A stretch of DNA of 64,000 nucleotides, taken from positions 1,798,001-1,862,000 of the forward strand of contig NZ_CP046072.1 in NCBI RefSeq assembly GCF_017357825.1. The letters run 5' to 3'. Of this stretch, positions 31,520-51,600 are shown in pieces. Position 1 is the stretch's first letter. Each line of letters starts with the position of its first letter. The DNA is from Sulfurimonas aquatica. Its GTDB lineage: Bacteria > Campylobacterota > Campylobacteria > Campylobacterales > Sulfurimonadaceae. A program made the translations under genes and the position numbers. The notes under the pieces are model-generated. The model saw only the letters and a program-made list of their open reading frames with translations, searched no databases and was not told the DNA's origin.

Positions 31520-34500
31520 TTAGAAGGGTATTTCGTCTTCATCAAACTCAACTTTATTTCCTAAGTGTTCCTCTAGCTGATTAAATGACTTTTGCAATAT
31601 TTTATTCTCAAATAAGAAACTATCAGGTAACTTGGTTTTTAAGTGTTCGAGGCCTGCAATTGCCTGAGCATAGTCATTTTCATTAATATGAGCAATAATA
31701 GAATTACAAAAATTCATAAAAAAGTTATGAAGAATCTTTTTTTGTTTATAGTCATATTTAGAAGCAGTTTCTATTTGATCAGAACTATATGCAAGCAACT
31801 TCTGAAAAATATCTCTAAATTCATAAGATTCCATCGCAGTATATTCAAATTGTTCATTCATTTCTGTTTCAATAACATTTTCTCTTATAAATAACATTAG
31901 TCTGTCTTCGCTTAATACAAACTCATTATTGATAATAGAGTTTGTATGATAAGTAGAATTACTAATTACTGTTGCTAAATTAGAAAAATGATTTTTAATT
32001 TGATTAATCCGATGTAAATCTTTATTAGATTTAAGACCATTACTTATCGTGTTTACAATATCAATCGCTTTCTTTGCAAATATTCTAGACTCTTTATATT
32101 GATTTGAATCTAAGAAATATGAAAAATTAATAAAAAAAGTAATATAAGAATCCCACCAAAGGTCTCTATTATTTGGGTATATCTCTGATACCAGTAAATA
32201 ATATTTCACATAATTTTGTATAGAACTATTTTCCAGCTTCTGATACTCAAGAATTTTTTCAATCTTAGTATTATAAGTTATCAGCTCTCTAAGATAGCCA
32301 GCCATCTGTGTATACATCTCTTCATTTTCTATAAACTTATTAGGTAGTAATCTTATTACATATAAGCTTGCTTGAATAGATTCAGTTATCTGATTATCTA
32401 ATATAAGTTCTCTAATCTCTTTTTGTACTGTACTAAACTCTTCATCTATAATTTTACGGTTATAAGGAATATTAACCAACTTAAATATTTCGTCTGATGT
32501 CATATCCTCAAGTATATTAAATACACCTATTTTAGGTAAGAAGATTTCATCTGTTCCATAACTTAACAATAATACTTCAACCTCAGGTTCAAATGTATAA
32601 TCACTTGCTAACATACCTGCATCTGAATAAATTGTTTTATCCGCACCATTTTCAAGTAGATATTTAACTTTTGAATAGTTTGATTGCCCCTGCATAATTA
32701 GTTTATGATCAAGTTTTGCCGCCATAATTAAGGCTGTCATACCACCTTTACTTCTCATGTTTATATTTTTAACTTTTGGTAACAAGAGTTCAAGAAACTT
32801 TAGCTCATTTTTTGCAGCAGCATATACAAAAGGAGTCGTTCCTGAGGCGACAGGTAAATCTGGGTTTGCTTCATGTTCTACCAAGAGAGTACATACATCA
32901 TATAAATCTTTACTTAATGCCCAAAAGAGTGCTGTATATCCATTTTGTCCTTGAATATTAGGATTGGCCCCTAAGTTTAATGCCTTTGATATAACTTTAT
33001 AAGCAGCAGCTTCTTGTGTAGCGTTTAACCCGGGATTACTTGTGATATGTGTTAATATTGTCTGGCTAGCTTTATCTTGATCATTAACATCTAATCCTAC
33101 TTCAGTAATTAAAAAATCAAGACATCTTACTGCTTTGTGATCTATAGCTACAAATAGTAAATTTCTACCTTGTATATTTCGTTCATTTAATACAACTTCT
33201 TCTGCATGTAACCTATGGAAATAAGCTAAGTTGTCGTAAGCTAACGCTATATCTAAATATTTATCTTTTTCATTTATATTTATAGACAGAGGAATATCCC
33301 CTCTATCAAATAGATAATTTATAATCTTTTCATTATTGTTTCTAAAATAATAAAAAATTGTATCTTTATCATTCTTATCTATCTCAAAGAGGTCAGCCCC
33401 TTTATCAAGTAACATTTTCAAGATCTTTACATTATCATTGTTACACAAATATTTTAAAGGTGTATCTCCTAGTTTATTTTGATGATTTACATCTGCCCCA
33501 TATTCTAATAAAATCTTAACAAGTTCTACATTCTCAAACAGTACGGCATAAGACAAAGAAGAACTATGCATACTTTCAATATTTGCCAAATCATAGTCTG
33601 AATCATCTTCTTCAATCAAGATTGATTTAATTAATGAAAACTCGTCTATATCATTGATTGCTAATTTTTTTGATTCTATCTCTTCAACACTATCATGATC
33701 TTTTTCTACTGCATTTACATCTGCCCCATTTTCAAGTAAAATCTTACATGTCTCATAAGCAGCACTTTTATTCTGATTTTGGGCTGCTTTGAGTAAAGGA
33801 GTGTACCCATTGTTGATAATATTAACATCTATTCCTTCTTCAAGAAACCTTTTGACTAATATTGTATTTCCATTTTCTGCTGCAAGTATCAAAGGTGACC
33901 AATTCTTTGGATTATTCATATTAACTTTAGCACCCGCATCAATAAGGTATTCAACAACAGATGTTTGGTTTAAGTGTGTTGCATGCACTATTGGATAAGT
34001 ATTTGCCATATTAGTAACATTAAATGTCTCAATCGACTCTCCAATATACTGTATAACTTTCATTGATGCACAAACAACAGCATGAGTTAAGATGTCTGCA
34101 TTAAACCAGTGCACTTTTGTTAAACTTTCACTTGATTCTGAAAAATATTTAATATAATTAACAGCATCTAATCGAGCAGCGACTATGAGTGAAAATGACA
34201 TAAAACTCACTTTATTAATCTTTTCTAATTCACTTTTCAACTCTCCATATTTTTTATTATATTTAGAGAACAAGCCTTCACTATTTAAAGATTCAAAAAT
34301 TGACACATATACCTCCATCATTTCAAATTGATCAATACTTTTTAATATATTATCTGTGAAAAATAAAAAAAGCTTCTCATATTGTTTTGACCCAAGCAAC
34401 GCATACAGATATACTAGATATCCTCTCTGTGTTTTAGAGGATGAAAAAAGATTTGCAATATCACCGTTCAAGCTAACAGCATCTAATCTATAGTAGTCAA

Positions 34501-36517
34501 AAATATATCTCTTAAACTGTTCATCTTTAATGAAATATATAATTAACCCATTATTCTCTGTCTTTGATACAAAAGGAGATACTGCATTCAATAGCATTGT
34601 CCATACAGATGACGGTATTTGTTCATCTGCGAGTTCATGGAATTCATTTTTAATAGATAAATACACCTCTTTATTTTTTCGTAAAAGAGTGTTTAATTCC
34701 AATTCACTAAGACCATTATTACTGCTGCTTATATATCCTATAAAATTAGCAATGAGCTCTTGAGAGAAGTATTTCAGATAATGTTCATCATAATAGCTAT
34801 GAACCTCTTCAAGTGTAGTAAAAAATCTATCTGTTTGAAGTACATGATCAAAAGGGGTAGTTCTATGTAAAAAAATCAAAGAGTTAAAGATAGTTAAGTT
34901 TTGGAAATCAACTTGAGAGACAAGAGCATCAGCCTGTTCTCTTTGAAGCACTCTATTTTCACTAGAGAGTGTCAGATTAATATATTGGACTGGATCAAAC
35001 TGTTCCTCTAATGAAATATTATCAACAAATATATCTGCCCACGGTTTAATCGTAATTAACTGCTTATATTGCACAAATGAATTTGTTGAAATAATAAACC
35101 TTATATTATTATATTTTGTATTTATATTATCTACCAGTAAAAAAACTTCTTGAAAACCATCTACATAATTTAATCCATCAATAATAACTGTTTTATTATC
35201 ATTTTCATTTAGGCAATCAAGTTCATACATAACAAATTTTTCAAGGTAAGAAAGATTAGCTAATAGAGGGCTACTCTCAATACTTGCAATTATTATATTT
35301 TGGGTATTGCTATAAAAATTGTAAAGGATTGAAGATTTACCAACTCCTTTTTTTCCATATAAAATAAATGGTGTACTATTTTTTTCTGTATGAGAGTGAA
35401 TTTTTTCAAGAAAATCTAATTCATGTTTTCTTGCCATAAAGAATTTATATCTATTTTGAAAATAGTAATTTTGCTCATGCTTAATACGTTCAAATTCTGG
35501 CATCTCTGCTTGTCCAATCTGTTCTTTAATTGCATTTAGAAAATGTTCTGTTATGTCTTTTGAGAAAGTAGCTAAATAGTTTTGATCAAGTGTATCGTTT
35601 TTACAATATGTTGTCTTAAGTTCTATAATATTTTCATCATCAATACTCCTGCGTAAAGCATCTTTGAAAGTATCGCTATTCAAATGATTTTCATCTACAT
35701 AGCTTTTACTTGAATCATCAAAGTTTGAAATAGTACGTATAAAAGCATATACATGTTTTTTATCGACAATTTGTTGATTCTGACATAATTCTGAAACTAA
35801 ACGCTCCCCTTCTTTATAACTACATATCCCTTCTCTAACCTCATGTTCTGTTGCTGAAAGAAAATACTTCTCATCTTTATTTAGAATTTTAAGTGTTGTC
35901 ACAGCCTTTTGTAATATTTCTCGTAAGGCTATCTCTTCAGCTTCCCAATTCTCATAAATAGTATACTCACCTACCCTTTTTGTAAGTATATAAGCACCGA
36001 TAGAAGATTCTTTTTTACTATCAACTATCTGATTTGCATCAAATGAATACCATTGTGTAAGAAGTTGAAGCTCTGATATTTTACGACTTTCTTTTTGCTC
36101 TTCATGAAATGATGTAGGTGTACTCACATCAGCATAAACTTTATAGCTTCTATAATTTAATTCCACAGAGTCTTGATTAGATTCAATATATGTTATTATA
36201 CTTTCATACTCTTCTTTTGCTATAGCATATGGTAAAGGAATCCAACCATATCTATCTCCTTGCATAATTAAAAAATTTGGATGAGGAAAAGCTTTACATT
36301 CTTTGACTTCATGAAGACATATATCTAAAGCTTTTTGATCAAGTTGGGCTTCGTTATTTACCCCCCAACGTAAATCAATAGGCTGAAACTGATAGCCATT
36401 GTCTAAACAATGTTTGTTTAAAACTGGGAATACAGTTTCATGTAGAATATGTCGTTCTTCTTGAAAGTCGCTAAATGTTGATGATATAAATAATCTAAAT
36501 GTTTTTGATTTGTTCAC
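31520..36517 (-). CDS. DUF4062 - NTPase - ankyrin repeat protein
   Basis: The largest protein of the window, 1665 residues. The DUF4062 domain (1-105) has KTFRLFISSTFSDFQEERH, DLRWGVNNEAQLDQKALD and FLIMQGDRYGWIPLP. The NTPase (about 360-640) has Walker A ILYGKKGVGKSS near 384-395 and Walker B KTVIIDGLNYVDG. From about 845 to 1310 follow ankyrin repeats (WSPLILAAENGNTILVKRFL, YTPLLKAAQNQNK, LENGADVNAVE), then a long helical tail. Ankyrin repeats suggest protein-protein sensing. The start is GTG at 36517, with AAGGATT upstream. Second gene of operon A. It shares its first third with the TPR-type paralogues but carries a different sensor. Confidence 0.86.
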   Translation of the reverse strand: MNKSKTFRLFISSTFSDFQEERHILHETVFPVLNKHCLDNGYQFQPIDLRWGVNNEAQLDQKALDICLHEVKECKAFPHPNFLIMQGDRYGWIPLPYAIAKEEYESIITYIESNQDSVELNYRSYKVYADVSTPTSFHEEQKESRKISELQLLTQWYSFDANQIVDSKKESSIGAYILTKRVGEYTIYENWEAEEIALREILQKAVTTLKILNKDEKYFLSATEHEVREGICSYKEGERLVSELCQNQQIVDKKHVYAFIRTISNFDDSSKSYVDENHLNSDTFKDALRRSIDDENIIELKTTYCKNDTLDQNYLATFSKDITEHFLNAIKEQIGQAEMPEFERIKHEQNYYFQNRYKFFMARKHELDFLEKIHSHTEKNSTPFILYGKKGVGKSSILYNFYSNTQNIIIASIESSPLLANLSYLEKFVMYELDCLNENDNKTVIIDGLNYVDGFQEVFLLVDNINTKYNNIRFIISTNSFVQYKQLITIKPWADIFVDNISLEEQFDPVQYINLTLSSENRVLQREQADALVSQVDFQNLTIFNSLIFLHRTTPFDHVLQTDRFFTTLEEVHSYYDEHYLKYFSQELIANFIGYISSSNNGLSELELNTLLRKNKEVYLSIKNEFHELADEQIPSSVWTMLLNAVSPFVSKTENNGLIIYFIKDEQFKRYIFDYYRLDAVSLNGDIANLFSSSKTQRGYLVYLYALLGSKQYEKLFLFFTDNILKSIDQFEMMEVYVSIFESLNSEGLFSKYNKKYGELKSELEKINKVSFMSFSLIVAARLDAVNYIKYFSESSESLTKVHWFNADILTHAVVCASMKVIQYIGESIETFNVTNMANTYPIVHATHLNQTSVVEYLIDAGAKVNMNNPKNWSPLILAAENGNTILVKRFLEEGIDVNIINNGYTPLLKAAQNQNKSAAYETCKILLENGADVNAVEKDHDSVEEIESKKLAINDIDEFSLIKSILIEEDDSDYDLANIESMHSSSLSYAVLFENVELVKILLEYGADVNHQNKLGDTPLKYLCNNDNVKILKMLLDKGADLFEIDKNDKDTIFYYFRNNNEKIINYLFDRGDIPLSININEKDKYLDIALAYDNLAYFHRLHAEEVVLNERNIQGRNLLFVAIDHKAVRCLDFLITEVGLDVNDQDKASQTILTHITSNPGLNATQEAAAYKVISKALNLGANPNIQGQNGYTALFWALSKDLYDVCTLLVEHEANPDLPVASGTTPFVYAAAKNELKFLELLLPKVKNINMRSKGGMTALIMAAKLDHKLIMQGQSNYSKVKYLLENGADKTIYSDAGMLASDYTFEPEVEVLLLSYGTDEIFLPKIGVFNILEDMTSDEIFKLVNIPYNRKIIDEEFSTVQKEIRELILDNQITESIQASLYVIRLLPNKFIENEEMYTQMAGYLRELITYNTKIEKILEYQKLENSSIQNYVKYYLLVSEIYPNNRDLWWDSYITFFINFSYFLDSNQYKESRIFAKKAIDIVNTISNGLKSNKDLHRINQIKNHFSNLATVISNSTYHTNSIINNEFVLSEDRLMLFIRENVIETEMNEQFEYTAMESYEFRDIFQKLLAYSSDQIETASKYDYKQKKILHNFFMNFCNSIIAHINENDYAQAIAGLEHLKTKLPDSFLFENKILQKSFNQLEEHLGNKVEFDEDEIPF

Positions 36518-37484: not shown

Positions 37485-39038
37485 TTAGTCTTTAAAGTAC
37501 TTTACACAAAAGATATTATATTTTTTACTAGGATGTTTCTGATATTGATTTAATTCACCATAATCATTTTGATATGTCCAAAATAGCCCTGGCCTATAAT
37601 AAGCTTCATAGTTAGTCCAGTATCGCTTTTTTGAAGATGGTATTCGCTGAGCTTTAACAAGTATTTCGGCTGTTGAAAAGTCTGGGAGCTTCATACCGAT
37701 GCTTTTACATTTTTTAGTAGCATCAGTTAAGATGTACTTCCCATCGATTTGTTTTAGTTTAATTTTTTTTGCAGCTTCTCGTATATCTTTATATTTTTCT
37801 TCAACTAAAACTTTATCTATCAATATATCTTTGTCTTGCATACTTATCCAAAACTTTTCGCTTAAATAGCCTTTTTTAGATAACTCTATTTGATACATTC
37901 CTGGATAAAGTAATATTCCATCATGATATTTTGGTTTTATATTCATTATTTTAATTTTTGCGTTATCTTGTTTTACATTGATTTTCAAAGCATGGCTTTT
38001 TTTATCTAAGTATATTGGATCATCTGGCAAAAATTCGCTCCTAAGTACCCATTTCTCACCATGATAATTAACTGTATACTTTGAACCTGTATTTTGCCAA
38101 AAATATTTGCGATTAAACATATACTCCGGATGATATTGTGGTAGTGACTTGGCTAGTGGCAAGTGCGACCATTTATTTTTTTGAGTAGCCTCTAAAATAT
38201 ACTCTTTATTTTTTTCATATAAGACAACCCATGCATGCCCATCCTCTTTTTTACCTACTGGCGTTATCGTTCCAATAACAACTCGAGCATTATAACCCTG
38301 CCCTATAAGCCAATCTGCCAATAATATGGCATGATCTTCACAGTCTCCCCTTAAATTTCTACTAGCCTCTCGAGATGTTTGCCACACTTCCCTTTTACCA
38401 TTATATGCATCTGTATCAAGTTGATACTTTATTCGAGTTCGCAAAAGTGACAGTGGTTCCCATACAGATTTTATATTTTTTGGATTATAGCCCACTAAAT
38501 AGGCATTTGAATAATACAACCTTGCTGTACTTGATGGTGCAGCAATATTAAAATATTCTTCTCTAAAAGGTAGTATTTGTTCTATGTAAGTATTTTGTTG
38601 TTCTTGTTTTACGGAGAGTAATTTACCAATATTTAAAAGACTTCTGCTTTTTAGAACTTTTGTTTTACCACTCTTGGCTTTTTCATTATAGTTTCTATCT
38701 ACGGACTCTTTATCTTTTGAAGATTTACCTTTAAACATAGGTTTCAAATTTTCTTTGTTTATTTCTTCATATTTGGTTTTTTCAAGAAGACTTTTATTAG
38801 ATTCTTTTTTATTTTCATTCGCATCTTCTGCAGAGTTGCCATCATACCTATAGACTATAAAAATATACATAATGCTAAATATAATCAAGTTTAGAAATAA
38901 AATCCATGTACTCATTGCTTTGCCAGCATACTTATAGATACTTATAAGCAATAATAAACTTGCTATAAACATAACTGGAATCAGTTTAGCTAGTACTGGG
39001 TATTGATTATATAACTCAACAACTACATTATAAAGCAT
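37485..39038 (-). CDS. Membrane-anchored transglutaminase-like protein
   Basis: A 517-residue protein with two N-terminal membrane segments (about 15-36 and 43-63), a charged linker, and a transglutaminase/cysteine-protease-like domain near 195-300 with the Cys in RGDCEDHAILLADWL, the His in EDGHAWVVLY and an acidic partner in YILEAT. A PEGA-like beta domain follows (DGILLYPGMYQIELSKKGYL), and the C-terminus (CKSIGMKLPDFSTAE, KRYWTNYEAYY, FCVKYF) resembles Lcl/FGE-type domains. Which side of the membrane it faces cannot be settled. Last gene of operon B. Peptide cleavage or cross-linking is inferred from the Cys-His-acid set. Confidence 0.72.
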   Translation of the reverse strand: MLYNVVVELYNQYPVLAKLIPVMFIASLLLLISIYKYAGKAMSTWILFLNLIIFSIMYIFIVYRYDGNSAEDANENKKESNKSLLEKTKYEEINKENLKPMFKGKSSKDKESVDRNYNEKAKSGKTKVLKSRSLLNIGKLLSVKQEQQNTYIEQILPFREEYFNIAAPSSTARLYYSNAYLVGYNPKNIKSVWEPLSLLRTRIKYQLDTDAYNGKREVWQTSREASRNLRGDCEDHAILLADWLIGQGYNARVVIGTITPVGKKEDGHAWVVLYEKNKEYILEATQKNKWSHLPLAKSLPQYHPEYMFNRKYFWQNTGSKYTVNYHGEKWVLRSEFLPDDPIYLDKKSHALKINVKQDNAKIKIMNIKPKYHDGILLYPGMYQIELSKKGYLSEKFWISMQDKDILIDKVLVEEKYKDIREAAKKIKLKQIDGKYILTDATKKCKSIGMKLPDFSTAEILVKAQRIPSSKKRYWTNYEAYYRPGLFWTYQNDYGELNQYQKHPSKKYNIFCVKYFKD

Positions 39039-39044
39039 TAATAT

Positions 39045-39272
39045 TTATCGTATTCCCATTCCAACAATTATGGCAATAAAAATCATAATGCTAGAAGCAA
39101 ATATTGCAGCGGCGATATTACCTTTTTGAATCTCTGATTGTAAATCTATATTTTTCAATAAAACCTTATCAATTACTAGTAAAAAAATAACACTCGCGAC
39201 CAATGTAACAAATGTTACACCTAAATTCATCCCTATAGCAAAGTATGTAGCCTCTATAAAATCTGTTTCCAT
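39045..39272 (-). CDS. DUF350-like small membrane protein
   Basis: A 75-residue protein with two membrane segments (about 15-37 and 52-72) joined by a short loop with EIQKGNIAAAIFASS, the typical DUF350 signature. The function of the family is unknown. It sits six bases before the transglutaminase-like gene and 16 after the radical SAM gene in the kinase/AAA cassette. Confidence 0.7.
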   Translation of the reverse strand: METDFIEATYFAIGMNLGVTFVTLVASVIFLLVIDKVLLKNIDLQSEIQKGNIAAAIFASSIMIFIAIIVGMGIR

Positions 39273-39288
39273 TTTCTTCTCCTAATTT

Positions 39289-39936
39289 TTATGCTATCCA
39301 TGAGTTATCATTAAGCACTAAACCTTTTTCAAGGCACTTTTCTTCCAGAGTTTGCATTGTACCCTTTTGAGGAATTCCTATAAACCATACATTGCCGTTA
39401 GACACTGCAACCTGAATTTTTTTACTATTTTGATTCTGATATAAAGCATCTTCGTCATAACGCTTAAGCCCTAACTTGCTTAAACATACAATATTTTGAT
39501 TTGTTGAACCTTTAAGGTATGCTGTTTCTAAGTTTTGATTATAAGGTTCACAGACTACCGCATCTAATAGCTTCAATATAGAAGGAAATTCTTTTTGTAA
39601 GTAATCGTAAGAAAAGCCAGAATACACTAATATGTCAAAATCTTTTTCAAGAGTTTCTCTCCACTTAATTATCTTTTTGAGAAAGTCTTCAAGTGCTTTT
39701 GGTTGTTCAAAAGGTTCTCCACCAGATATGGTAATGCCATCTAAGTTTTCATTTTCAAACTTCTTACACCAACTTAGTAACTCTTTTATTGGCATTAGTG
39801 AATCCAACTTATCTTCCCAGGTGTCTTTAGATATACATCCACTACATCCTATGGAACAACCCTGTGTCCAGATGCCAAGTCTAGTTCCATATCCTAAAAC
39901 CGTTACTGGAAAGTGAGCTTTATTTATGGCTATCAT
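39289..39936 (-). CDS. Radical SAM protein, NrdG-like activase type
   Basis: A 215-residue 4Fe-4S radical SAM protein of the short activating-enzyme type. The cluster motif is atypical in spacing but clear (TQGCSIGCSGC near 27-37), and the SAM-binding motif is ISGGEPFEQ near 69-77. No glycyl-radical enzyme is encoded nearby, so it probably modifies another protein, perhaps a partner in this cassette (inference). Its start overlaps the stop of the ClpB-like AAA gene by four bases, a sign that the two work together. Confidence 0.8.
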   Translation of the reverse strand: MIAINKAHFPVTVLGYGTRLGIWTQGCSIGCSGCISKDTWEDKLDSLMPIKELLSWCKKFENENLDGITISGGEPFEQPKALEDFLKKIIKWRETLEKDFDILVYSGFSYDYLQKEFPSILKLLDAVVCEPYNQNLETAYLKGSTNQNIVCLSKLGLKRYDEDALYQNQNSKKIQVAVSNGNVWFIGIPQKGTMQTLEEKCLEKGLVLNDNSWIA

Positions 39937-41801
39937 GAAACACTTATTTTAATACTATAAACATTATCACTCATGGTAATAGCATCAACTATTATTGTTT
40001 GGTCTTTAAAAGACTCTAACTCAAATAGTTTCCTTGCCAGAGGATTTACCAATGAACTTTCTAATTTACTTCCGATACCTCTACCACCATTTTTTAAATC
40101 ACTAGTTGAGATAGCTATTAAAGTATTTCGAGCTCCTTCAGACAACTCTAGTTTAGCTCTATGCTCATCTTTTACTCTTCTTTTAATATTGTTAACCATT
40201 ATCTCGAAGATTTCAATTGCAACATCTTTTTGAATAAAATTAAAAACTACAATATTATCACCCAATCGGTTAAGAATCTCAGGACGGCGTAGTTCATTCG
40301 TGAAATGCTCTTCAATTCCCTTAAGTACATTTTCTCTCACTTCTTCATATGTGTTCTGTGGATGAACCAACTGCTCAGTCGTGCCATCTCTATGACGTTT
40401 TGATATCCCCAAGTTAGAGGTAAAAACTATAATACTTTCAGAGAAAAACACAGTATCTCCAAGCCCATCTGTAATCCTTCCATCTTCTAAAATTTGAAGG
40501 AACTTATCTAAAATCTTGGGATGTGCTTTTTCAATCTCATCAAATAATATAAGACTAAAAGGCTTAGAACGAACAGCTTTAGTTAGTTCACCTCCACTCT
40601 CATAACCAACATAACCAGGAGGTGCGCCTATTAGTCTTGCCTCTGAGTGCTCAGATGCAAATTCACTCATATCAAAACGAATGTATGCATCCTGCGAACC
40701 AAATATACTTTGTGTAAGAGATTTTGCTAACTCAGTTTTACCTACTCCAGTTGGCCCAGCAAGGAATAAAACACCCCTTGGGCGTGATCCAGATGAAGAT
40801 GTTTGCGCTCCAGTTAGACCCATTATAGATCTTTTTAATATATCTAATGAAAGTTCAATAGCGGCGGGCTGTCCTTTAACTCTAGATGAGATTCTTTCTT
40901 TGGCGTTATCGACTCTTTCTTTTAAGCCATTAGCTCTCCATGGACTATTTACATCTTGATTCCCAGTTTTATATCCACGAGCAGCATCATCTAAATCATC
41001 CATCCCTATTTTTTGATCCCTAACAAGAGTCATGATATCAATCATGTCCTGGAGTTTAAGGCCCTCACTTAGGCCTGCAAATATATTTACATACTGCGAG
41101 TGATTATCTTTATAATTTTCATAATTATGTATATGTTTGATATATAAGTCTGCAACAATACTTCTAGATTCATGGGATGGCTTTTCTACTTCCTGAAAAA
41201 CTATACGATTATTTCCTGCACCATACCATACAGGTATATCAAATCTATTTTGAACACACCAAATAACTGGGTTGTAAAGTTTGTTAGCGAGCTCCTCATT
41301 TTTTATTCTTCGAGCATCTCTAGCTAGTTGATCACAGCTACGAAAAAAGTTATACTCTTCTTCACTTAGTGAGTCTACACTTCTTGAGATTCTTGAAGCA
41401 TATTCAATTAAAATAGCAACTCTATGTTTTGTATATGTACCATACCCATCGTCTTCTTGCAATACGATTTGTTTTATATAACTTGCAAACTCTTGTAAAG
41501 AGGGTTTACTACCTGATGTTAGCTCAAGTCCATCTGCAACTTCTAACTTCTCGTCTTTTTTTAAATATTTACCATCGATTAAAATTGATATGCCATTAAC
41601 TGGGTTATACTTAACTATGCACTCGTACTTTTCATTTTCCAACATATTCCATAGGATAGCATCCATGTGTAGTACTTTTGCTACATTATCTTCTTCATAT
41701 ATATGTTGATCGTCTACATTTCCACTCAAAATAAACTGTTGACGAATTGGTAAAAGTCTTTTTATTTCTTTAGCATACTTTACAGTCCTACTCATCATCA
41801 A
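39933..41801 (-). CDS. ClpA/ClpB-type AAA+ ATPase
   Basis: A 622-residue protein with one ClpB-D2-like ATPase module. The first half (about 1-300) is a unique domain followed by an AAA fragment with degenerate motifs (VWYGAGNNRIVFQEV). The second half has Walker A AGPTGVGKTELAK near 349-361, pore loop GAPPGYVGYESGG, Walker B LILFDEIEKAHP, sensor FTSNLG and a C-terminal ClpB-like small domain. It lacks the Clp N-domain and tandem D1. Overlaps both neighbours (coiled-coil and radical SAM genes). Probably remodels a partner protein in this signalling cassette. Confidence 0.85.
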   Translation of the reverse strand: MMMSRTVKYAKEIKRLLPIRQQFILSGNVDDQHIYEEDNVAKVLHMDAILWNMLENEKYECIVKYNPVNGISILIDGKYLKKDEKLEVADGLELTSGSKPSLQEFASYIKQIVLQEDDGYGTYTKHRVAILIEYASRISRSVDSLSEEEYNFFRSCDQLARDARRIKNEELANKLYNPVIWCVQNRFDIPVWYGAGNNRIVFQEVEKPSHESRSIVADLYIKHIHNYENYKDNHSQYVNIFAGLSEGLKLQDMIDIMTLVRDQKIGMDDLDDAARGYKTGNQDVNSPWRANGLKERVDNAKERISSRVKGQPAAIELSLDILKRSIMGLTGAQTSSSGSRPRGVLFLAGPTGVGKTELAKSLTQSIFGSQDAYIRFDMSEFASEHSEARLIGAPPGYVGYESGGELTKAVRSKPFSLILFDEIEKAHPKILDKFLQILEDGRITDGLGDTVFFSESIIVFTSNLGISKRHRDGTTEQLVHPQNTYEEVRENVLKGIEEHFTNELRRPEILNRLGDNIVVFNFIQKDVAIEIFEIMVNNIKRRVKDEHRAKLELSEGARNTLIAISTSDLKNGGRGIGSKLESSLVNPLARKLFELESFKDQTIIVDAITMSDNVYSIKISVS

Positions 41802-42777
41802 TCCTTTTTTCTTTTCTCTTTTTTCTTTCTATCGTTGTCTCAGCATCAGATTTTTGAGTTCTTTCTATTATTACTCTGTCTTTTGTGACTGTGTGCACCG
41901 GTATCTCACCTGCTCTAAGATGATTAGTTACTTCTATCGATATTCCTTTAGAGCCTAAACTATGCTGTAGATGTGTAAAATCTCCGCACCAATCATCTTC
42001 AGTCTTTTGATCATCAGAACGACTGTGCATAGTATCACCAGTGTAGACCATATGAAAGTTCATGCTTTCATCTTTAGGCTCTATACGCATCTCGACATAA
42101 TAGTTATCAGCCCATGTTGAATCTCTAAAATGTGTCACCCCACCCTCTACAAATAGTGTTTCAGAAATAGTTCCAACTTCATAATCCATCTCTTTTAATG
42201 ATTCGGTTATTATACTTGCAACTTTTGCTTCATCAACTTTTTTTCTTTGTATTTCTTCTTGTTTTATCTGCTCTTTTATTTCTTTAGCCTCTTGAGCTAT
42301 TCTAGAGTGAACTTGAGTAGCAATTTCCTCCATACTATCGAGAGAAAATGCCTGATTAAACTCATTTAACAGGGATTCCATGGATTCACTTATAGTTCCA
42401 TGTTCATTTATATGTTGAGTTATATCACTTAGAAGTTTTTCACGATATTCCCGTAACTCCTGAAAATTATCGCTAATAGCTAAATCACTCTCTGACTTAT
42501 CCTCTTCTAAGTATTCTTCAGGAATTTTTTCAATCTCTCCTTTTACAAAACCTTGTTCCATCTTTGTTTTTCTATCAGTAGCTTTTTGTTCTCTCTCTTT
42601 TAATTTCTTAGCTCTTTGTTCTAGATATAAATCTTCTTGTTTTTTTAATTCTAATAAGTACTGTTGCTCATTCCCTTTTAAAGTTTCTATCTGCTCTTCA
42701 ACCTGCTTATCTCTTTTCCTGTCTTCCACTAAAGCTTCAACAGCAATATAGTAGTTTGCACTTTTTGGTCCACTCAT
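41788..42777 (-). CDS. Coiled-coil protein of unknown function
   Basis: A 329-residue protein beginning MSGPKSANYYIAVEAL, followed by long charged coiled coils (about 20-75 and 100-205) and a compact C-terminal domain (about 210-310: VGTISETLFVEGGVTHFRD, MNFHMVYTGDTMHSR). No family recognised. Overlaps the FHA gene by four bases and the AAA gene by 14, so it is a fixed member of the kinase-FHA-AAA cassette, perhaps an adaptor between the ATPase and FHA/kinase parts. Confidence 0.65.
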   Translation of the reverse strand: MSGPKSANYYIAVEALVEDRKRDKQVEEQIETLKGNEQQYLLELKKQEDLYLEQRAKKLKEREQKATDRKTKMEQGFVKGEIEKIPEEYLEEDKSESDLAISDNFQELREYREKLLSDITQHINEHGTISESMESLLNEFNQAFSLDSMEEIATQVHSRIAQEAKEIKEQIKQEEIQRKKVDEAKVASIITESLKEMDYEVGTISETLFVEGGVTHFRDSTWADNYYVEMRIEPKDESMNFHMVYTGDTMHSRSDDQKTEDDWCGDFTHLQHSLGSKGISIEVTNHLRAGEIPVHTVTKDRVIIERTQKSDAETTIERKKRKEKRIDDE

Positions 42778-43331
42778 AATTCAACACCCTTTAAACTAAT
42801 TTCTATTACTAAATCTTTTGCTAGTTTTAATGTGCTCTCTTGAGTTAATTCTACTTTTTGATTTGGTATTATTCTTTGGGAATTCACAAAAGTTCCGTTT
42901 GTGGACTCTAAATCTACTATGTATAACTTACCATCGTCCACACTGATTTGTGCATGATTTCTAGATATGTTTTTAAAGTTTTTTTCCAACTCTTTTGTCA
43001 TATCTTGTGGAGCAGGTTTAATTCTTCCTATCCATAGATAATCGGCTATTTTATACTCCCCCCAAGGAAATTGTAAACTCCACTCCCCAGTTGAAATCTC
43101 ATTTATCTTAACATACTCTCTACAGTCTAAACAGTAGTTACCATGAAGATTACTGTGTGCACACTCCTCTTGAATAACGTCCACTGGCTCTTGTGGTTGC
43201 TCTTGAGTTACTTCCACTTCACTTTCTTCTATTGGGTCAACCCCGACTAGATCTGTGCCACACTCGTCACATTCTGCATAGCTCTCAGGATTAATATGTA
43301 AACAGGTAGGGCATTCCTTTACCATTTTCAT
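42774..43331 (-). CDS. Zinc-ribbon and FHA domain protein
   Basis: Phosphothreonine-reading adaptor. The N-terminus is a zinc ribbon (CPTCLHINPESYAECDECG at 6-24); an acidic linker and a second Cys/His cluster (CAHSNLHGNYCLDC) follow. The FHA domain (about 85-185) keeps the key residues: IGRIKPAPQ, ISRNHAQIS and LESTNGTFVNS. FHA domains bind phospho-Thr, and a Ser/Thr kinase is encoded two genes upstream in the same operon, so kinase-dependent assembly is likely. Confidence 0.85.
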   Translation of the reverse strand: MKMVKECPTCLHINPESYAECDECGTDLVGVDPIEESEVEVTQEQPQEPVDVIQEECAHSNLHGNYCLDCREYVKINEISTGEWSLQFPWGEYKIADYLWIGRIKPAPQDMTKELEKNFKNISRNHAQISVDDGKLYIVDLESTNGTFVNSQRIIPNQKVELTQESTLKLAKDLVIEISLKGVEL

Positions 43332-43333
43332 AT

Positions 43334-44527
43334 TTATGCCTTCTTCTCGTAGATTTTGTTATGAGAATCTTCAAGAATGTCTTCAAAAATATCTGTAATC
43401 TCAGTCCTACTTAATTCTATCCTTAGTCTTTCTAAATCTTCGATTGAATTATTTCCTTCTGCCATCTCTATCTCTTTTTGAATAATATCATTTGCTTTAT
43501 TGCTAATTCCAACTATTTTATTAATATTTAATTTTCTTCTTGCATCTAGGTAAGCATTATATTCTGAATATGGAAGAAACATTTTTGTAACAACGGGAAA
43601 AACTTCAAACATTATAAAAAATAGCATTAAAAACATTCCAAAGGTAGCAGCCTCTTCATGCTCTTTTTTGATCTCTTCAAGAGCTATAAACTGTGTGAGT
43701 AAATCATTTGATTTTTTATTAGTTGCTATCTCTTTTGCTAAAGTCTCAAGTCTACCTAGTTCTGTTTTCATCTCTTCTCTAATACTCTTTTCTATGCCAA
43801 CTTTTTTAGCTTCAAGTTCTTTAACTTTCATTTCTATCTTTTCATCTAAGGCAATTCTTTTAAGCTCAATTTTAATTGCTTTAGGACCACACTCTCCACG
43901 ACCACACTCTTTTATATACTCTTGTTGATAGCCTTTAGATGTTTTTCTATCTGCTTCAATATCTATTAATAACAAATTTATTGCATTATTTCTTTTAGTG
44001 TCAAGTTTTTTTTCTGTTTCTCTGATCTCTCTGATTTTATGCGCGTTTTCTTGTTCACTCATTTTACTAATTCTTGATTTTATCTGATCTTCTTGAACTT
44101 TCAATTCTAAAGGAAAAGCTATAATGATACCGATGATGACTGAAAACACCAACCTAGGAATATATGGTCCTTTACTCTTTATTTTCTCCCACACTTTTCC
44201 TAATGCTGTAGTCGCCTTACTTGTACTTGGTGCGACTACAACAGAAACAACTTCACGGTCAAAGACCACAATTGCAAAAGCGTAAAAAAAGCTCAAAGCA
44301 CCTGCTATAAATAGTTCTTGAGTAGTTGCGTTTTCAAAAAATACGCTCTGTAGTGCAAAAAACATTGATATCATCGCCATAATACCTGTGATCAATACAA
44401 TAACGCCAATACTCGATTGCACTGACCTTGTTTCAGCAGTACAAAATTGAAGAGCATGTGTGTCAGTTTTTGACAAAAAGTAGAAAAACCTACTTACTAA
44501 ATTACCGTTTTTATTTTTTTCATTCAT
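43334..44527 (-). CDS. DUF4407 membrane protein
   Basis: A 397-residue membrane protein with segments near 36-60, 64-88, 120-140 and 290-310, and a long periplasmic or cytoplasmic coiled-coil loop between about 145 and 280 (RISKMSEQENAHKIREIRET, and similar). The start motif FFYFLSKTDTHALQFC and the fourth segment fit DUF4407. Family function is unknown; such proteins are often found with kinases and secretion-like systems. It lies two bases from each neighbour (kinase and FHA genes) and is a probable membrane platform or kinase target. Confidence 0.75.
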   Translation of the reverse strand: MNEKNKNGNLVSRFFYFLSKTDTHALQFCTAETRSVQSSIGVIVLITGIMAMISMFFALQSVFFENATTQELFIAGALSFFYAFAIVVFDREVVSVVVAPSTSKATTALGKVWEKIKSKGPYIPRLVFSVIIGIIIAFPLELKVQEDQIKSRISKMSEQENAHKIREIRETEKKLDTKRNNAINLLLIDIEADRKTSKGYQQEYIKECGRGECGPKAIKIELKRIALDEKIEMKVKELEAKKVGIEKSIREEMKTELGRLETLAKEIATNKKSNDLLTQFIALEEIKKEHEEAATFGMFLMLFFIMFEVFPVVTKMFLPYSEYNAYLDARRKLNINKIVGISNKANDIIQKEIEMAEGNNSIEDLERLRIELSRTEITDIFEDILEDSHNKIYEKKA

Positions 44528-44529
44528 TT

Positions 44530-46860
44530 TTATTTCCTTTTTTTATTTTTATTTTTTAGCTTATTACTACTAATCACCATGTCATACACTTTTCTCCCAA
44601 GTAATTTTTTTAAAATCATCTCAAAAAAATCCGCTTTAGGAATAGAATCTATAGTTAAAGATTTAATAGTGTCTTTCCTATTTCCGAAACTATCTAGTTT
44701 CTTAATAGTTGAGTTGCTCTTTTTAAATGGCTCTAAGTCACCTATGGAACTATCGCACTCTTTAAACATATCAATACCATCGTTTATAGAAGATAATGAA
44801 AAAAGATTCTTAACGCCATCTTTTTTCATATTAAACTTAATTGTCGGGTCAAGTGTAAATTCTGGTGCTTGGACAAAAACTTCACATCTTTGATAATTTC
44901 CTCTTGCATCAAAACTATACAGGGTATATACCTTTGATGCTGATATAGTCAGCTCATATTCTCCTGAGTTGTCTACAAAACCTACTTCTGTTATATAGTT
45001 CATAACGCTGTTCTTTATATTCCACGAAAGCTTGACTCGATTAGCGATATAAAGTTCTTTATTACAAAGTTTGTATTTAACAGGTATTTCTGAGACACGT
45101 AAGACAGCCGTAGATATTACTCTCATATCTGGTGTAATTAAATTTCTTCGAGCCCTTCTAAATCTTCGAATATTATGGATAACTCTCCATATACTTAGGA
45201 TTATAGATTGACCTGTATCTTGTTGTGTTCTAATCTCTGAAACATCAGTAAATGTATGAAGATTATCTTCGAGTAAAGATGCATAATGGTTTGTAATTAG
45301 TGAAGCTACAAGTCCATAACCATTTCCCTTGTCTGCTTTAGCAACAAGATAGTTAACCCATATATAACATAAACTTTCAGACTTACTCCACCTAAGTTCG
45401 TAGTCAAATTTAGCTTCTCTATTTATATAGAGTTCAGCATAGTCTCTTGCCCTGTTAAATAGACTATCCTCGCCTTTTTTTGATTTAACAAAAACTGTCG
45501 CTTCTACATAGTCATCTATTTGCTTTATCCATTTTTCAGATATTATATTTAATTCATTTATACCAGTCAGTTCATATAACTCACCAATTATATTGTTGTC
45601 GTATATCTCTTTTATCGAAATTTTAGTATTAAGATCCCCCTCAATAACTTTTTGTGCAATTTGCAATAAATTGTTTTCATTGATCTTATACTCTTTATAC
45701 TGAGGTGGAAAATTTGGATCGAGGACATAAATTAATTTTAAAAGATATATATCGTTATTTTCAGATTTTGATTTTTTTATTATTTCATCTGAAAGGTTTA
45801 GTTCGATTAACCTCTCTCTAATCCAATCCTCAAAAATACCCTGAGACATTTTTGAAGTCATCTCTCGCCATGTAATTGCTAACTTATGAGCTAGTTGTTT
45901 AGCATTTTTAAAGTTTCCTGTACTTGTTTCTTTTTTATTTTCGTGAGAATCTATCCATAGTTGAATATCTTTTTCATTCCATCTTTTTTCAATGCTCTCT
46001 TCTAGTAATCCGACAAAAAGTTCTTTCCATCTCATTTTAGCTTCATCAAAACCAGACCATGACTTCCAATCACTAAGATCTTCTAATGATGTTAATGCCA
46101 CTAGTATACTTACGCCTAAAGAATAAAAATCTGACTTAAGAACAATAGACCCAGCTTCAACCTCTGGAGCACTAAAGAATGGTGTTCGGCCTTGTCTAGG
46201 TAAGTGAGGGTCAATGCCAACTTTGGCAGATAAGCCATAGTCACATAATCTCCAAACTTTTTTCTCTCCATCATATATGATGTTTTCTGGTTTAACATCC
46301 GCATGAATAATCGACTCGCTGTGTAAACGACTCAAGCCTTCAGATACATCTTTAAGTATCTTTTTTAAACTTAGCTCTCTTGAGTAACCCAAATCTATTG
46401 ACTCTTGAAAAGTCCAACCATCTACTCCATCTAAAATCTCATAAGATCTATTGTTGCAAACTCCCCACTCTCTCAAAGGAACTAAGCTATCATGTTTAAT
46501 GCTTACGAGTGAATCTAGGACATCCGTATTGGAATTTATTGCCTCTCTATAAATCTTTAAAACTAAAAACTCGCTATTTTCTTCTACCTTCCATAAGCAA
46601 CCTTCTGAACCACTGCCTAAAGGTTCTATATTATGAAATCTAGTACGAAATTCGCTGGGAAGAAATATTAATGGAGTAGTATCAGGATGACAATCTCTGA
46701 GTGTTTTAAAATATAGACCACCAACAGAGTTGGTAAGTCCATCTCTAAGAGTTACTAAGGCAGCATCTCTTTCATCAACATCTATTAATGTATTTGTCTC
46801 TAGAGAACATGGAGTATGTATCCCAGAGTATAGATCATCACGCATAGTCAATGTATTCAC
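44530..46860 (-). CDS. Hanks-type Ser/Thr protein kinase
   Basis: A 776-residue protein with a kinase domain at about 72-300. The glycine loop is LGSGSEGCLWKV, the ATP Lys lies in LVLKIY, the catalytic loop is HADVKPENII, the DFG motif is changed to DYG in LCDYGLS, and the APE motif is SAPEVEAG. All catalytic residues are kept, so it is probably active. The long C-terminal part is helical and then beta-rich, with a basic tail (KLKNKNKKRK), and is not recognised. There are 133 bases without a dyad between it and the TIR-nuclease gene; it may be read through from operon B or have its own promoter. Works with the FHA protein downstream. Confidence 0.85.
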   Translation of the reverse strand: MNTLTMRDDLYSGIHTPCSLETNTLIDVDERDAALVTLRDGLTNSVGGLYFKTLRDCHPDTTPLIFLPSEFRTRFHNIEPLGSGSEGCLWKVEENSEFLVLKIYREAINSNTDVLDSLVSIKHDSLVPLREWGVCNNRSYEILDGVDGWTFQESIDLGYSRELSLKKILKDVSEGLSRLHSESIIHADVKPENIIYDGEKKVWRLCDYGLSAKVGIDPHLPRQGRTPFFSAPEVEAGSIVLKSDFYSLGVSILVALTSLEDLSDWKSWSGFDEAKMRWKELFVGLLEESIEKRWNEKDIQLWIDSHENKKETSTGNFKNAKQLAHKLAITWREMTSKMSQGIFEDWIRERLIELNLSDEIIKKSKSENNDIYLLKLIYVLDPNFPPQYKEYKINENNLLQIAQKVIEGDLNTKISIKEIYDNNIIGELYELTGINELNIISEKWIKQIDDYVEATVFVKSKKGEDSLFNRARDYAELYINREAKFDYELRWSKSESLCYIWVNYLVAKADKGNGYGLVASLITNHYASLLEDNLHTFTDVSEIRTQQDTGQSIILSIWRVIHNIRRFRRARRNLITPDMRVISTAVLRVSEIPVKYKLCNKELYIANRVKLSWNIKNSVMNYITEVGFVDNSGEYELTISASKVYTLYSFDARGNYQRCEVFVQAPEFTLDPTIKFNMKKDGVKNLFSLSSINDGIDMFKECDSSIGDLEPFKKSNSTIKKLDSFGNRKDTIKSLTIDSIPKADFFEMILKKLLGRKVYDMVISSNKLKNKNKKRK

Positions 46861-46993: not shown

Positions 46994-48643
46994 CTAATGC
47001 CAAATCAAATTAGCGTACTTATATAGATCAGTAACGCTTTTGTCATCCAACCAAAAGAAATCCGTGTTTTTTTGTATATTTGGCGGGCTCTTTACTTTGC
47101 CCTTACTCACTTCGCCGACGTTAAGTATGTATACTTCGGTTCTCTTCTCATCTCTAAAATGGGCAAACAAAAAGAGATAGACTTCATCCCAGTTTACATG
47201 ATACTTCTTAGCGTGTTTATAGAGATCTTGGTTTTTAGTGAGACTTTCGTTAAACTCCTCTTCAGACGAAAAGTTTCTGTACTTCACGTCAAAAAAGAAT
47301 GAGTTTATCATCTGGTTTTGCTCATTAAGTTTTAGTATAAGCAGATCAGGCGAACTCATAAACCTACTCATAACCTTTTTAGACTCTTGGTTTTCTACAT
47401 CATTTGTTTTCTCGATAAAATTAAGAGCGTTTCCTACTATATGCTCAACTCCAAAACTTTGAACCACAAGGTTGTTTTTGTTGAAAAAAACTTCCGCTAA
47501 CGTCTCTGCTAGACGCCCGTTGTAATGGTTATACTGCTGTGCACTTGAAACTATCTTTTGAAACTTCTCCGTATACAGCAGTTCTTTATATGCATCTGTA
47601 AAGCCTTTATAGTAGTTTCCTCTAATATCTTCAAGCCTATCTTTTGTGGCACCCCACCAATTTGGAAACATCGAAAAGTTTAAAAAAAGATTTGGGAGTT
47701 TCTCCCCATCTTTATACTCCCCTGTAAATGGGAGAGCATATTTTGCTTCTTTGTATTTTGGTGGGTGTTTTACATACTGATAAAAGAGAATAGGCAGCAA
47801 TGACTTTTTTATCAACTCCTTGTACTCTAGTTGTCTAAAGCTATCAACGATAAGCGACCTTTTTTTAAAGTCGATGTTGTCATCTTTCATGTCTAGATGG
47901 AATTTCTCTTGCGTCGACTCTAAAAATGAACTACTATATATAACTTCCCTCGCATCGTAAAAGTAACTTGCCTCTATCGCTTTATAGTAAGTGGTAGTCG
48001 CCTTTTGCAAATACTTTGGAATGATGATCAACGACTTTTTCTCTTTATAAGCGTATATGGCATTATGCTCTTCAAGGTAGTTAAGTATCTGTGATTCTTT
48101 TTTTGGCTCTTTTTTTATAGCGCTTTTAACGGAGCCAACACTCTTCCAGTTCTCTCTGTTGTAAAGGGCGAGCTTGTAGCCCATAAGTTTAAAGTGTTGC
48201 ACGCAAAACTCATCTATGTTATCCTCGTCGATGTATTTTCTGTTATCGTAAACGAGTCCGAGCTGTTTTAACGTGTTTGTTACAAAGGTCTCTACTTTTT
48301 CTTCACTATCATCAAACGCATTAAACCACTGCACGGTAGATAAAAAGTACTCCATTCCCTCCTCTGGCTCACAATCTTCTATACGTACAGGGAAAATCTT
48401 TTTTTGATACTTCGTAGCCAAGTCCAACTCTCTTGGAATATGCTGTGAGCCGTTTGCGTTTTGTGAAAAAACCAAAACAATGCAAGAGGCTTCTTTTATG
48501 GCGGAAGTTATCGCCGCTGAGTAGTTCTCGCTCGTCTTTATGTTCTCATCAGCAAACCAAGTCTTTGTGTTTTGACTCAAAAATCCATCATTGATCTTCT
48601 GAGCTACCCTTAAGTCTTTAGTCGAGTACGATATAAATATCAT
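46994..48643 (-). CDS. TIR domain - PD-(D/E)XK nuclease-like protein
   Basis: A 549-residue protein. Residues 1-115 are a TIR domain (MIFISYSTKDLRVAQ; RELDLA near 76 carries the putative catalytic Glu; PVRIED). The middle is unrecognised. The C-terminal 170 residues have a restriction-endonuclease-like pattern: LAEVFFNKNNL, SSPDLLIL, then FFFDVKYRNF, which gives the E, D and D-x-K set. So it may act on NAD, on DNA, or use TIR to sense and the nuclease to act. It overlaps the DUF4062-TPR gene by four bases, which suggests a sensor-effector pair. Confidence 0.8.
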   Translation of the reverse strand: MIFISYSTKDLRVAQKINDGFLSQNTKTWFADENIKTSENYSAAITSAIKEASCIVLVFSQNANGSQHIPRELDLATKYQKKIFPVRIEDCEPEEGMEYFLSTVQWFNAFDDSEEKVETFVTNTLKQLGLVYDNRKYIDEDNIDEFCVQHFKLMGYKLALYNRENWKSVGSVKSAIKKEPKKESQILNYLEEHNAIYAYKEKKSLIIIPKYLQKATTTYYKAIEASYFYDAREVIYSSSFLESTQEKFHLDMKDDNIDFKKRSLIVDSFRQLEYKELIKKSLLPILFYQYVKHPPKYKEAKYALPFTGEYKDGEKLPNLFLNFSMFPNWWGATKDRLEDIRGNYYKGFTDAYKELLYTEKFQKIVSSAQQYNHYNGRLAETLAEVFFNKNNLVVQSFGVEHIVGNALNFIEKTNDVENQESKKVMSRFMSSPDLLILKLNEQNQMINSFFFDVKYRNFSSEEEFNESLTKNQDLYKHAKKYHVNWDEVYLFLFAHFRDEKRTEVYILNVGEVSKGKVKSPPNIQKNTDFFWLDDKSVTDLYKYANLIWH

Positions 48644-51600
48644 CTATTATCTTCTAAAAATATTTTCACAAAAATACCGTACTTCTCTCTGTCAAAATTC
48701 TCCTCAGAATCCTTCAAAGAACTATAAGCATCATGCAGTTCATCTATAACACTTGAGTATTCTATCCCAAGTTTCTCCCTATAAAGCTCTATCAGCTTTA
48801 TGGCAAGCAGATTTAATTTATCTAACTTTTCCTGATTCTTCAAGTAAATTTCACACTGATACCATTTCACAAAGTCATATATAAACCAAGTGATATCGTC
48901 TTGACTTTTAAAATCTAAAACTTCAAAATATATTTCAAAAAGTTCACTAGCTGCTAGAAACTCTTTATTTTTAGATTTTGAGCTTGCGAAACCACTTAAA
49001 GAAATGGTGTAATCCTCCGCCCACCTCTGAGGATTCTCTTCATAAAGCTTCTCTAGTATCTCAAGAGACTGCTCTAGTAACGTTATCGCTTTGTTTAGGC
49101 AGTTTTGATTTTTATACGAAAATGCGAGATGTTTTAAAGATGTTGTGTAAAACTCCGCCCATCTCTGGGGGTTCTCTTCATAAAGCTTCTCTCGTATCTT
49201 AAGAGACTGCTCCTCTAACACTATCGCTTCGTTTATGCGGTGTTGCTTTTTATATAAAGATCCTAGGTTGTTTAAAGATGCGGTGTAATACTCCGCCCAT
49301 CTCTGGGGGTTCTCTTCATAAAGCTTCTCTAGTATCTTTAGAGATTTCTCTTGTAACACTATCGCTTCATTTAGACGGTTTTGATTAGAGTATGAAGTTG
49401 CAAGGCTAGTTAAAGATGTTGTGTAAAACTCCGCCCATCTCTGAGGATTCTCTTCATAAAGCTTCTCTAGTATCTTTAGAGACTGCTCCTCTAACACTAT
49501 CGCTTCGCTTATGCGGTTTTGCTTTTTATATGAAGATCCTAGGTTGTTTAAAGATGCGGTGTAATACTCCGCCCATCTCTGGGGGTTCTCTTCATAAAGC
49601 TTCTCTCGTATCTTAAGAGACTGCTCCCCTAATGCTATCGCTTCGCTTATGCGGTTTTGCTTTTTATATAAAGATTCTAGGTTGTTTAAAGATGCGGTGT
49701 AACTCTTCACCCATCTCTGGGGATTCTTCCTGTAGAAACCCTCTGCCACATGATAATAACTCTCTTGATAAGCTATTGCCTTATACATTCTGTTATGCTC
49801 ACCATGTGCAAACCCAACACTATTAAATTTAGAGAGATATTTTCGAATCCACTTTTCATTTTTTAGGCTTACTACAAACCTAGCGAACTCTATCTGTTTT
49901 TGCTTATCTTTATATCTTAACTCATACTCAGTAATGAGTGTGGCATAGAGTCTTCCCCATCTGTTTTCATCAAAGGGTTTGCCTTGATTTTCTTTTATGA
50001 GCTTTTGAGTAGCGATTATAACAGCTTCATGCTCTTCTCTTTGAGTTGACAGCTCTTTTATGGCATCTTCAAACTCTCTATGGAAGAAGTACATGAGCTC
50101 TTTAGCATCTTGAGTTTTTGAGCTAAGGAATGGTTTGAGTTGGGTATGGAGCCTGCTCCAGTGAACCATTGGAAGCTCTTTTGTAGGGTTTTCATGCCAA
50201 GTCTCTGGTGCCATCATCTCCACAAAGATTTCATCACTAGAGATAAGTGCTAAAAGTTCAGCTTCGCTCAAACCATCTCTTGAGGCATATATGTATCCAA
50301 GTACTTTGTGTACAAACTTTTCATTGTGATGGTAAGTTTGACTTAGGTTAGATATAAACTCTTGAATGATTCCTGTCTGACCTAGTTTCAAGTCTTGTTC
50401 CACTCCATCTTCTTTAGGAGTGTCTCCTTGCATAAAGTCACTGCTCTTCCAGTTCTTTATCTCTTGAGAGGCTATGCTTACATAAAGGGGTGAAGGAGAT
50501 GACTTAAACTGTTGTAGAAAATACTCTTCTTGATCTTCTTGGAGAGTTCTATCATCTTCTTTGAGTAAGGCTTTTAGAAGCTCGCTTGGTTGATTAAACT
50601 CTGGTATCAGATGGAGTAAACTTATTCTACTTCTAAGAGCTTTTAGGTACTTGGAATCTTGCTTATAGTTGTCATCCTCCAAGGCCGATAAAACTATTTT
50701 TACATTTTTGGGTAAGTTGTTTGGTAACCATAGAAACTGATCGTCATTTTGCAGTTGGTCTAGTGCATCTATGAAGATCACCACCTCTTCTTTTATATTT
50801 CTAATCTCCGAGTATATTCTCTGGCTGAAGTCCTCGAAAGACTCTGTATCTTCATTACTTCCTAAAGAAAGAGTCTCTTCTTCTTCAGTCTGCTTTTCTT
50901 TTTCACTTCTGACATCTATGCTGAGTTCTTCAAATATACTAGTTAGTATCTCTTTAGATGAAGAGGAGTTCGGAGTGGCGCTTACGAACCTATAAAGTAC
51001 TTTTGATTTTGCTAAAGTTTGAGCCTCTTCTATAGCCTTGGACATAAGAGCTGATTTTCCTCTTCCTGATTTTCCATAAATTACCAAAGCTTGTTCTTCA
51101 TCGCTTTGAAGATAAGAAGCTATGCTTTTTCTCATTTGTTCTTGCGAGAGGAAGTTTTTGCGTTTATTTATCGCGAAGTAGTTTTGGGCTTGAAGCTCTA
51201 TCTCCAACGGTGTAAGTTTTAACTCTTTTTCTCTTTGTGTCTGAGAGTCTACTTGTGACTCTAAAAACTCTATCATCCTTACTTCAAATTTTTCTAGGTA
51301 TGTCTCATCTAGTCTATCTTTATCTATTTGTTTAGTATGAGCTTTTAGTATGTTTTCACTTTGGAGAACTTCTTTTACTTCTTTTTTAAACGCTTGAGCT
51401 TTATCATATGCTGGACCTATAAACTTCTCTTCTACCTGTGTATCTTTATCTACGTATCTTTGAAATGAAAAAACATGCTGAGAGTCTACTTCATTCAAAG
51501 CTGTGTTTTGATTTAGAAGTTGACTTTGGTATCTCGCATGAGACTTATAAGGAAGAATCCCCTCTTCTACTTCTGCTTCGGTTGCAGAAAGAAAATACTT

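Follow-up and report, generated by a model that had tools for sequence, protein, structure and literature searches.

A kinase, FHA, Hsp100-type AAA, and radical SAM gene cassette of Sulfurimonas aquatica as a candidate mobile conflict system

Introduction

The threonine phosphorylation pathway of the type VI secretion system (T6SS) comprises PpkA, PppA, Fha, and ClpV. Mokosh type I is recognized by a kinase together with an SF1 helicase/nuclease. The kinase-kinase-phosphatase (KKP) module of Pf prophages consists of two kinases and a PP2C phosphatase, with FHA domains (PMC11341870), and the FtsH-type vWA-MoxR ternary conflict systems have one protein with two AAA domains, one dead and one live, and employ, in some cases, a radical SAM effector (PMC7159879). 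The right flank of Pseudomonas aeruginosa core defense hotspot 1 consists of three genes, a large one with DUF4011, a small hypothetical one, and one for a radical SAM protein, with no function given (PMC10250203). Here we analyze a cassette of Sulfurimonas aquatica that encodes a Ser/Thr kinase, a DUF4407 protein, an FHA protein, a coiled-coil protein, an AAA protein, and a radical SAM enzyme. It lies at 39289-46860 on the minus strand of a 64,000-nt window of NZ_CP046072.1 (assembly GCF_017357825.1), to which the coordinates given below refer unless another locus is named; the host genome (2.85 Mb, two contigs) is 99.99% complete.

The cassette shares part of its logic with the T6SS pathway, Mokosh, KKP, and the vWA-MoxR FtsH systems, and lacks a defining feature of each. 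A kinase, an FHA protein, and an Hsp100 ATPase are common to the cassette and the T6SS pathway, and PP2C is found in relatives of the cassette, but the cassette adds a radical SAM enzyme and a scaffold, and the first ATPase domain of its AAA protein is predicted to be dead. No T6SS structural family was found among the window ORFs (open reading frames) scanned, and the AAA protein scores 210 bits with the TssH model, for which the cut-off is 885. The kinase matches the PADLOC MkoA model of Mokosh type I (3e-21, kinase region only), and in a related branch the kinase is part of one fused protein with DUF4011, an SF1 helicase, and an REase domain; the window cassette itself has no helicase or nuclease, and no AAA_12 helicase exceeds the cut-off in the window's genome. 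KKP is similar in its phosphorylation balance for phage control and its Ser/Thr kinases, PP2C, and FHA domains, but AAA is unmentioned in PMC11341870, and the cassette has one kinase, a separate FHA protein, an AAA protein, and a radical SAM enzyme, with no PP2C among the window's eight clustered genes. The vWA-MoxR FtsH systems (PMC7159879) have in common with the cassette the dead and live AAA domains and radical SAM, whereas the cassette AAA protein is of the Hsp100/ClpB type (ClpB-D2) rather than FtsH, a kinase and an FHA protein are added, and no vWA or MoxR domain occurs among the cassette genes. The hotspot 1 flank (PMC10250203) resembles a helicase-fused branch of the family described below, a likeness by gene description only. 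The open-licence literature, a scope that leaves closed-access papers and preprints largely outside, gave no published description of the kinase-DUF4407-FHA-coiled coil-AAA-radical SAM set, and the system is apparently undescribed.

Results

The six-gene set is one copy of a widespread and mobile bacterial system. When 84,980 species were scanned with a motif segment specific to this AAA family, 22 members (L026-L047) were recovered along with 58 ordinary ClpB/ClpC-like loci (L048-L105), the latter serving as controls obtained by the same procedure. Class-wide searches of three further groups brought the family to 45 loci, counting the window. Partner genes were called by iterated profiles, and because many loci lie on short contigs the partner counts are lower bounds. 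A radical SAM gene accompanies the AAA gene at 36 of the 45 family loci, including one doubtful partial match (L040), and at 0 of the 58 controls (Fisher p = 1e-19), usually on the same strand with a spacing that ranges from 7 bp of overlap to a gap of 19 bp. The kinase (19/45 versus 1/58, Fisher p 1e-7), the FHA protein (17/45 versus 0/58, Fisher p 1e-7), and the coiled coil (20/45 versus 0/58) recur across Proteobacteria, Actinomycetota, and Clostridia, frequently alongside a gene for a PP2C phosphatase, which is present at nine loci. An earlier note on this DNA had placed the kinase, FHA, and AAA genes in one system, which these counts bear out, and had named conserved co-occurrence of the radical SAM and ClpB-like genes as a check, a co-occurrence now confirmed at 35 family loci besides the window. 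Eleven loci scored with all five profiles, a separate FHA gene being present in only nine of them. A kinase-FHA fusion in L027 and L028 is not claimed, as the zinc-ribbon/FHA profile matches there cover little beyond the ribbons.

The AAA gene is co-inherited with its partners: pairwise distances between AAA proteins follow those between radical SAM proteins (r 0.82, 34 loci, p 1e-4) and between kinases (r 0.87, 17 loci, p 1e-4). The locus of Methylocaldum (L026) has the kinase, DUF4407, FHA, coiled-coil, AAA, and radical SAM genes in the order seen in the window, and in the AAA tree it groups as sister to the window (support 91/94). Both fall within a 14-row AAA clade (100/100) of Proteobacteria and Actinomycetota whose loci are of this kind. 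Directly downstream of the Methylocaldum cassette are type III-B CRISPR genes encoding RAMP, Cmr2, and Cmr3 (L026:10028-14335).

Other branches join the AAA-radical SAM pair to different genes. Within 397 genomes of the phylum there are eight other AAA relatives at E <= 1e-80; in seven of these the radical SAM gene directly follows the AAA gene, and upstream the kinase set is replaced by an SF1 helicase, often a PIN protein, and a coiled-coil-like protein. The arrangement of helicase, PIN or other protein, coiled-coil-like protein, AAA, and radical SAM is found in Campylobacterota, in an archaeon, and on Moellerella and Acinetobacter plasmids; the Acinetobacter plasmid carries a second annotated radical SAM gene just after this helicase-PIN-AAA-radical SAM set (L151:10857-13213). 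At their C-termini the coiled-coil proteins of the kinase branch show a weak relationship to those of the helicase branch (hhalign E 2e-4, probability 46%). Burkholderia, Bradyrhizobium, and Sphingomonas have, after the radical SAM gene, a gene for a kinase-containing protein of ~2,100 residues and then a coiled-coil gene; the one such protein scanned, that of Bradyrhizobium, contains kinase, DUF4011, SF1 helicase, and REase domains. PA2725-PA2728 of P. aeruginosa PAO1 may belong to this helicase-fused branch. The fullest single run was found on a plasmid of rumen Clostridia, where genes for a DUF4011 protein, a kinase, a coiled coil, an FHA protein, a radical SAM protein, an AAA protein, a PP2C phosphatase, and a second kinase stand together. 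The AAA protein is encoded on 20 plasmids, 12 of which are typed conjugative, and the family is present in about 0.4-2.5% of the genomes sampled in five groups. In a tblastn search of plasmids, the coiled-coil and DUF4407 queries gave no match and the kinase query gave generic kinases only.

The eight genes that the earlier note had described as overlapping or nearly touching on one strand are confirmed as eight minus-strand ORFs at 37485-46860. From the kinase to the transglutaminase-like gene the coordinates give intergenic gaps of 2, 2, -4, -14, -4, 16, and 6 bp, a range of -14 to +16 bp, and Pfam backs all eight gene names. Promoter-like sites were not above the level of shuffled sequence (49 observed, 48.7 in shuffles). 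The first gene (44530-46860) encodes a Ser/Thr protein kinase of 776 residues (Pkinase 3e-23) with the motifs HADVKPEN and DYG and a long C-terminal region. It is followed by a DUF4407 protein (43334-44527, DUF4407 2e-38), probably a membrane protein with long helices, for which homologs were found only in the window and in Methylocaldum, at the same position in both, and none in 396 other genomes of the phylum. The third protein (42774-43331, FHA 3e-15, DZR 2e-4) is a predicted phosphopeptide reader with one or more N-terminal zinc ribbons.

The fourth gene (41788-42777) encodes a putative scaffold in which, by alignment, a conserved N-terminal MSGPK strand is followed by long helices and a conserved C-terminal α/β domain. 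In the AlphaFold 2 (AF2) model (predicted local distance difference test score, pLDDT, 74) this C-terminal domain, the MSGPK segment included, aligns with the KA1 domain of Chk1 over 90 of 93 residues (VIA Z 8.6), a match that came from the VIA second look only and sits where chance matches begin. Foldseek with the helix-rich model gave nothing at E <= 0.001, and the resemblance to kinase-associated KA1 domains is for this reason a hint only.

In its model the AAA protein (39933-41801, 622 residues; Pfam/NCBIfam matches to AAA_2, 4e-47, and ClpB_D2-small) is of the Hsp100 type, its first ATPase domain dead and its second live. A domain resembling NBD1, the first nucleotide-binding domain, without a P-loop precedes a ClpB-type D2 domain with Walker A, Walker B, pore loop, and arginine finger. 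These two stacked ATPase domains are those expected of an Hsp100/Clp protein, and the AF2 model (pLDDT 85) aligns over its full length with ClpC/ClpB at Z 27 and a root mean square deviation of 7, which falls to 3.2 for the C-terminal domain alone. The D2 motifs are invariant across the family, and the first domain is without a P-loop in every full-length member; the two P-loop hits are truncated proteins. No ClpP-docking tripeptide is evident by eye, which makes a protease partner unlikely.

The radical SAM protein (39289-39936, 215 residues; Fer4_12 1e-25, Radical_SAM 5e-7) has NrdG and PFL activase as its nearest named families and PFL-activating enzyme as its nearest solved relative (1e-16). 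The cysteines of CxxxCxxC are invariant and GG[ED]P is conserved across 16 homologs, so that the protein carries the motifs (CxxxCxxC, GGEP) of an NrdG/PFL-AE class activase. On the strength of this kinship it could act as a conventional activase on a glycyl-radical enzyme whose gene lies elsewhere, in which case the cassette would regulate anaerobic metabolism. However, neither NRDD nor Gly_radical has a match in the window's 99.99%-complete genome, so that the cognate glycyl-radical enzyme of that class was not found in the host and the lack of one at the locus, which the earlier note had remarked on, extends to the whole genome. The protein is therefore unlikely to be a conventional activase. 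NRDD is also absent from 15 of 15 non-clostridial partner genomes and Gly_radical from 13 of the 15, some of these being incomplete metagenome-assembled genomes. The glycyl-radical motif R-V/I-x-G-Y/F is conserved in no cassette protein family; it occurs in 1 of 48 AAA, 2 of 21 kinase, and 1 of 37 radical SAM proteins and in 0 coiled-coil, FHA, or DUF4407 proteins. A conventional glycyl-radical partner is thus unlikely, and the activase explanation, already largely refuted, is one that we regard as very improbable.

The last two genes encode a DUF350 membrane protein of 75 residues (39045-39272; DUF350 2e-9, covering the model's C-terminal half only) and a membrane-anchored transglutaminase-like protein (37485-39038; CEP76-like peptidase/Transglut_core), both probably bystanders. 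Their gaps of 16 and 6 bp, the common strand, and the lack of a convincing terminator between the radical SAM gene and DUF350 would suit a single eight-gene operon with the transglutaminase-like protein as its membrane effector. Co-transcription of the pair with the cassette is possible but by itself no proof of shared function, and among the 45 AAA family loci neither gene is found outside the window. A homolog of the transglutaminase-like protein was found in one same-genus genome (G1433) among 89 relatives, where the DUF350 (69% identity) and transglutaminase (49%) genes are adjacent with no cassette gene on that 10-kb contig. Because the two genes are absent from the other family loci and present without the cassette in a congener, the pair is probably a separate unit that lies downstream of the cassette by chance. 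We therefore consider the eight-gene operon quite unlikely, and the transglutaminase-like protein is rejected as the cassette effector on linkage. The earlier note had suggested that role as a possibility and had made its proposal depend on linkage of both the radical SAM and the transglutaminase gene to the kinase-FHA-AAA genes in homologous loci; the radical SAM gene is so linked and the transglutaminase gene never is. The kinase, DUF4407, FHA, coiled-coil, AAA, and radical SAM genes are one unit.

In the window the cassette is surrounded by an island of TIR, STAND, DUF4062, RyR, and double-AAA M41 genes. A TIR protein is encoded directly upstream of the kinase (46994-48643, minus strand) and two more on the plus strand (13304-15664 and 58159-59583), one of these two being a TIR-NPHP3_N-WD40 protein and the other a TIR-LRR protein. 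Three minus-strand genes (31520-36517, 48640-52128, and 23552-26851) encode DUF4062 proteins with ankyrin or TPR repeats that resemble STAND sensors, two of them with a clear NPHP3_N NTPase domain. Next to each other on the minus strand, a gene with TrkA_N plus RyR and one with a weak RyR match (26829-31453) overlap the neighboring DUF4062 gene. In two long minus-strand proteins (17781-20327 and 52582-55491) a Clp-like AAA_2 domain is joined to an FtsH-type AAA domain and an M41 peptidase, and no known system was identified for them.

Discussion

The reading that we favor, at a probability of roughly one in two, is that the cassette, acquired by horizontal transfer, is one copy of a conflict system of several genes, probably anti-phage, with a phospho-switched AAA/radical SAM pair at its center. 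A conflict role is favored by the island setting, the patchy distribution, the mobility, and the helicase-nuclease relatives of the family, and it is thus the genomic context that points to defense. The core would consist of a coiled-coil/KA1-like scaffold, an Hsp100-type AAA unfoldase whose first ATPase domain is dead and second live, and the radical SAM enzyme. In the window's branch this core would be governed by the Ser/Thr kinase and the FHA zinc-ribbon reader, and in many relatives also by a PP2C phosphatase. An invasion signal may tip the kinase/phosphatase balance, whereupon the FHA protein would dock a phosphorylated partner and the scaffold would hand a protein to the AAA ring. The ring would open or thread the delivered protein and so present it to the radical SAM enzyme, whose modification may either arm an effector or disable a target. 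Phospho-control of the AAA machine, which the earlier note had put forward, is strengthened by the PP2C genes of related loci, and the switch stays a putative one. Only tentatively do we go further and propose an immune machine in which a dead-first-domain Hsp100 ring opens a protein for PFL-activase-like radical SAM modification under a kinase/phosphatase/FHA switch and without a glycyl-radical enzyme, the helicase-nuclease and kinase branches being alternative sensor or effector arms of one core.

Several observations weigh against a conflict system of this kind. A PADLOC census of 113 neighbors at 23 loci was thin, with matches to DRT4, Cmr, LmuB, and MkoA, and control neighbors were matched as well, mostly by Clp-like and desulfurase-like models, so that the census is suggestive only; with a census so thin, enrichment of defense genes around family loci is not claimed. 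Shared species history accounts for part of the distance correlations. Nine of the 45 family loci have no radical SAM gene, some of them on short or truncated contigs, and the gene is thus not strictly required; a rumen clostridial clade (L038, L039, L040, and L042) is genuinely without a convincing one nearby. In that clade the AAA gene is followed by a gene for a conserved protein of ~245 residues, and the one scanned has no Pfam match. Nor does the kinase branch have a recognizable killing enzyme, be it a nuclease, a pore, or another, unless that part is played by DUF4407 or the kinase. That gap, together with the chaperone-like nature of the parts, would agree with a phospho-regulated machine for protein quality control or stress repair, in which damaged proteins are pulled out by the AAA protein and repaired or marked by the radical SAM enzyme, while the kinase, FHA protein, and PP2C set the activity. 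Patchy distribution, plasmid carriage, helicase/nuclease partners elsewhere, and the island setting are unlike housekeeping repair, and we consider this explanation unlikely.

If the conflict-system reading is right, the system would be present in at least Campylobacterota, other Proteobacteria, Actinomycetota, and Clostridia, and on conjugative plasmids, and would join protein phosphorylation, protein unfolding, and radical chemistry in one system. The kinase-type and helicase-nuclease-type loci would be linked through one shared AAA-radical SAM core. PFL-activase-like radical SAM enzymes would gain a partner other than glycyl-radical enzymes, and the target of the radical SAM enzyme would become a testable question.

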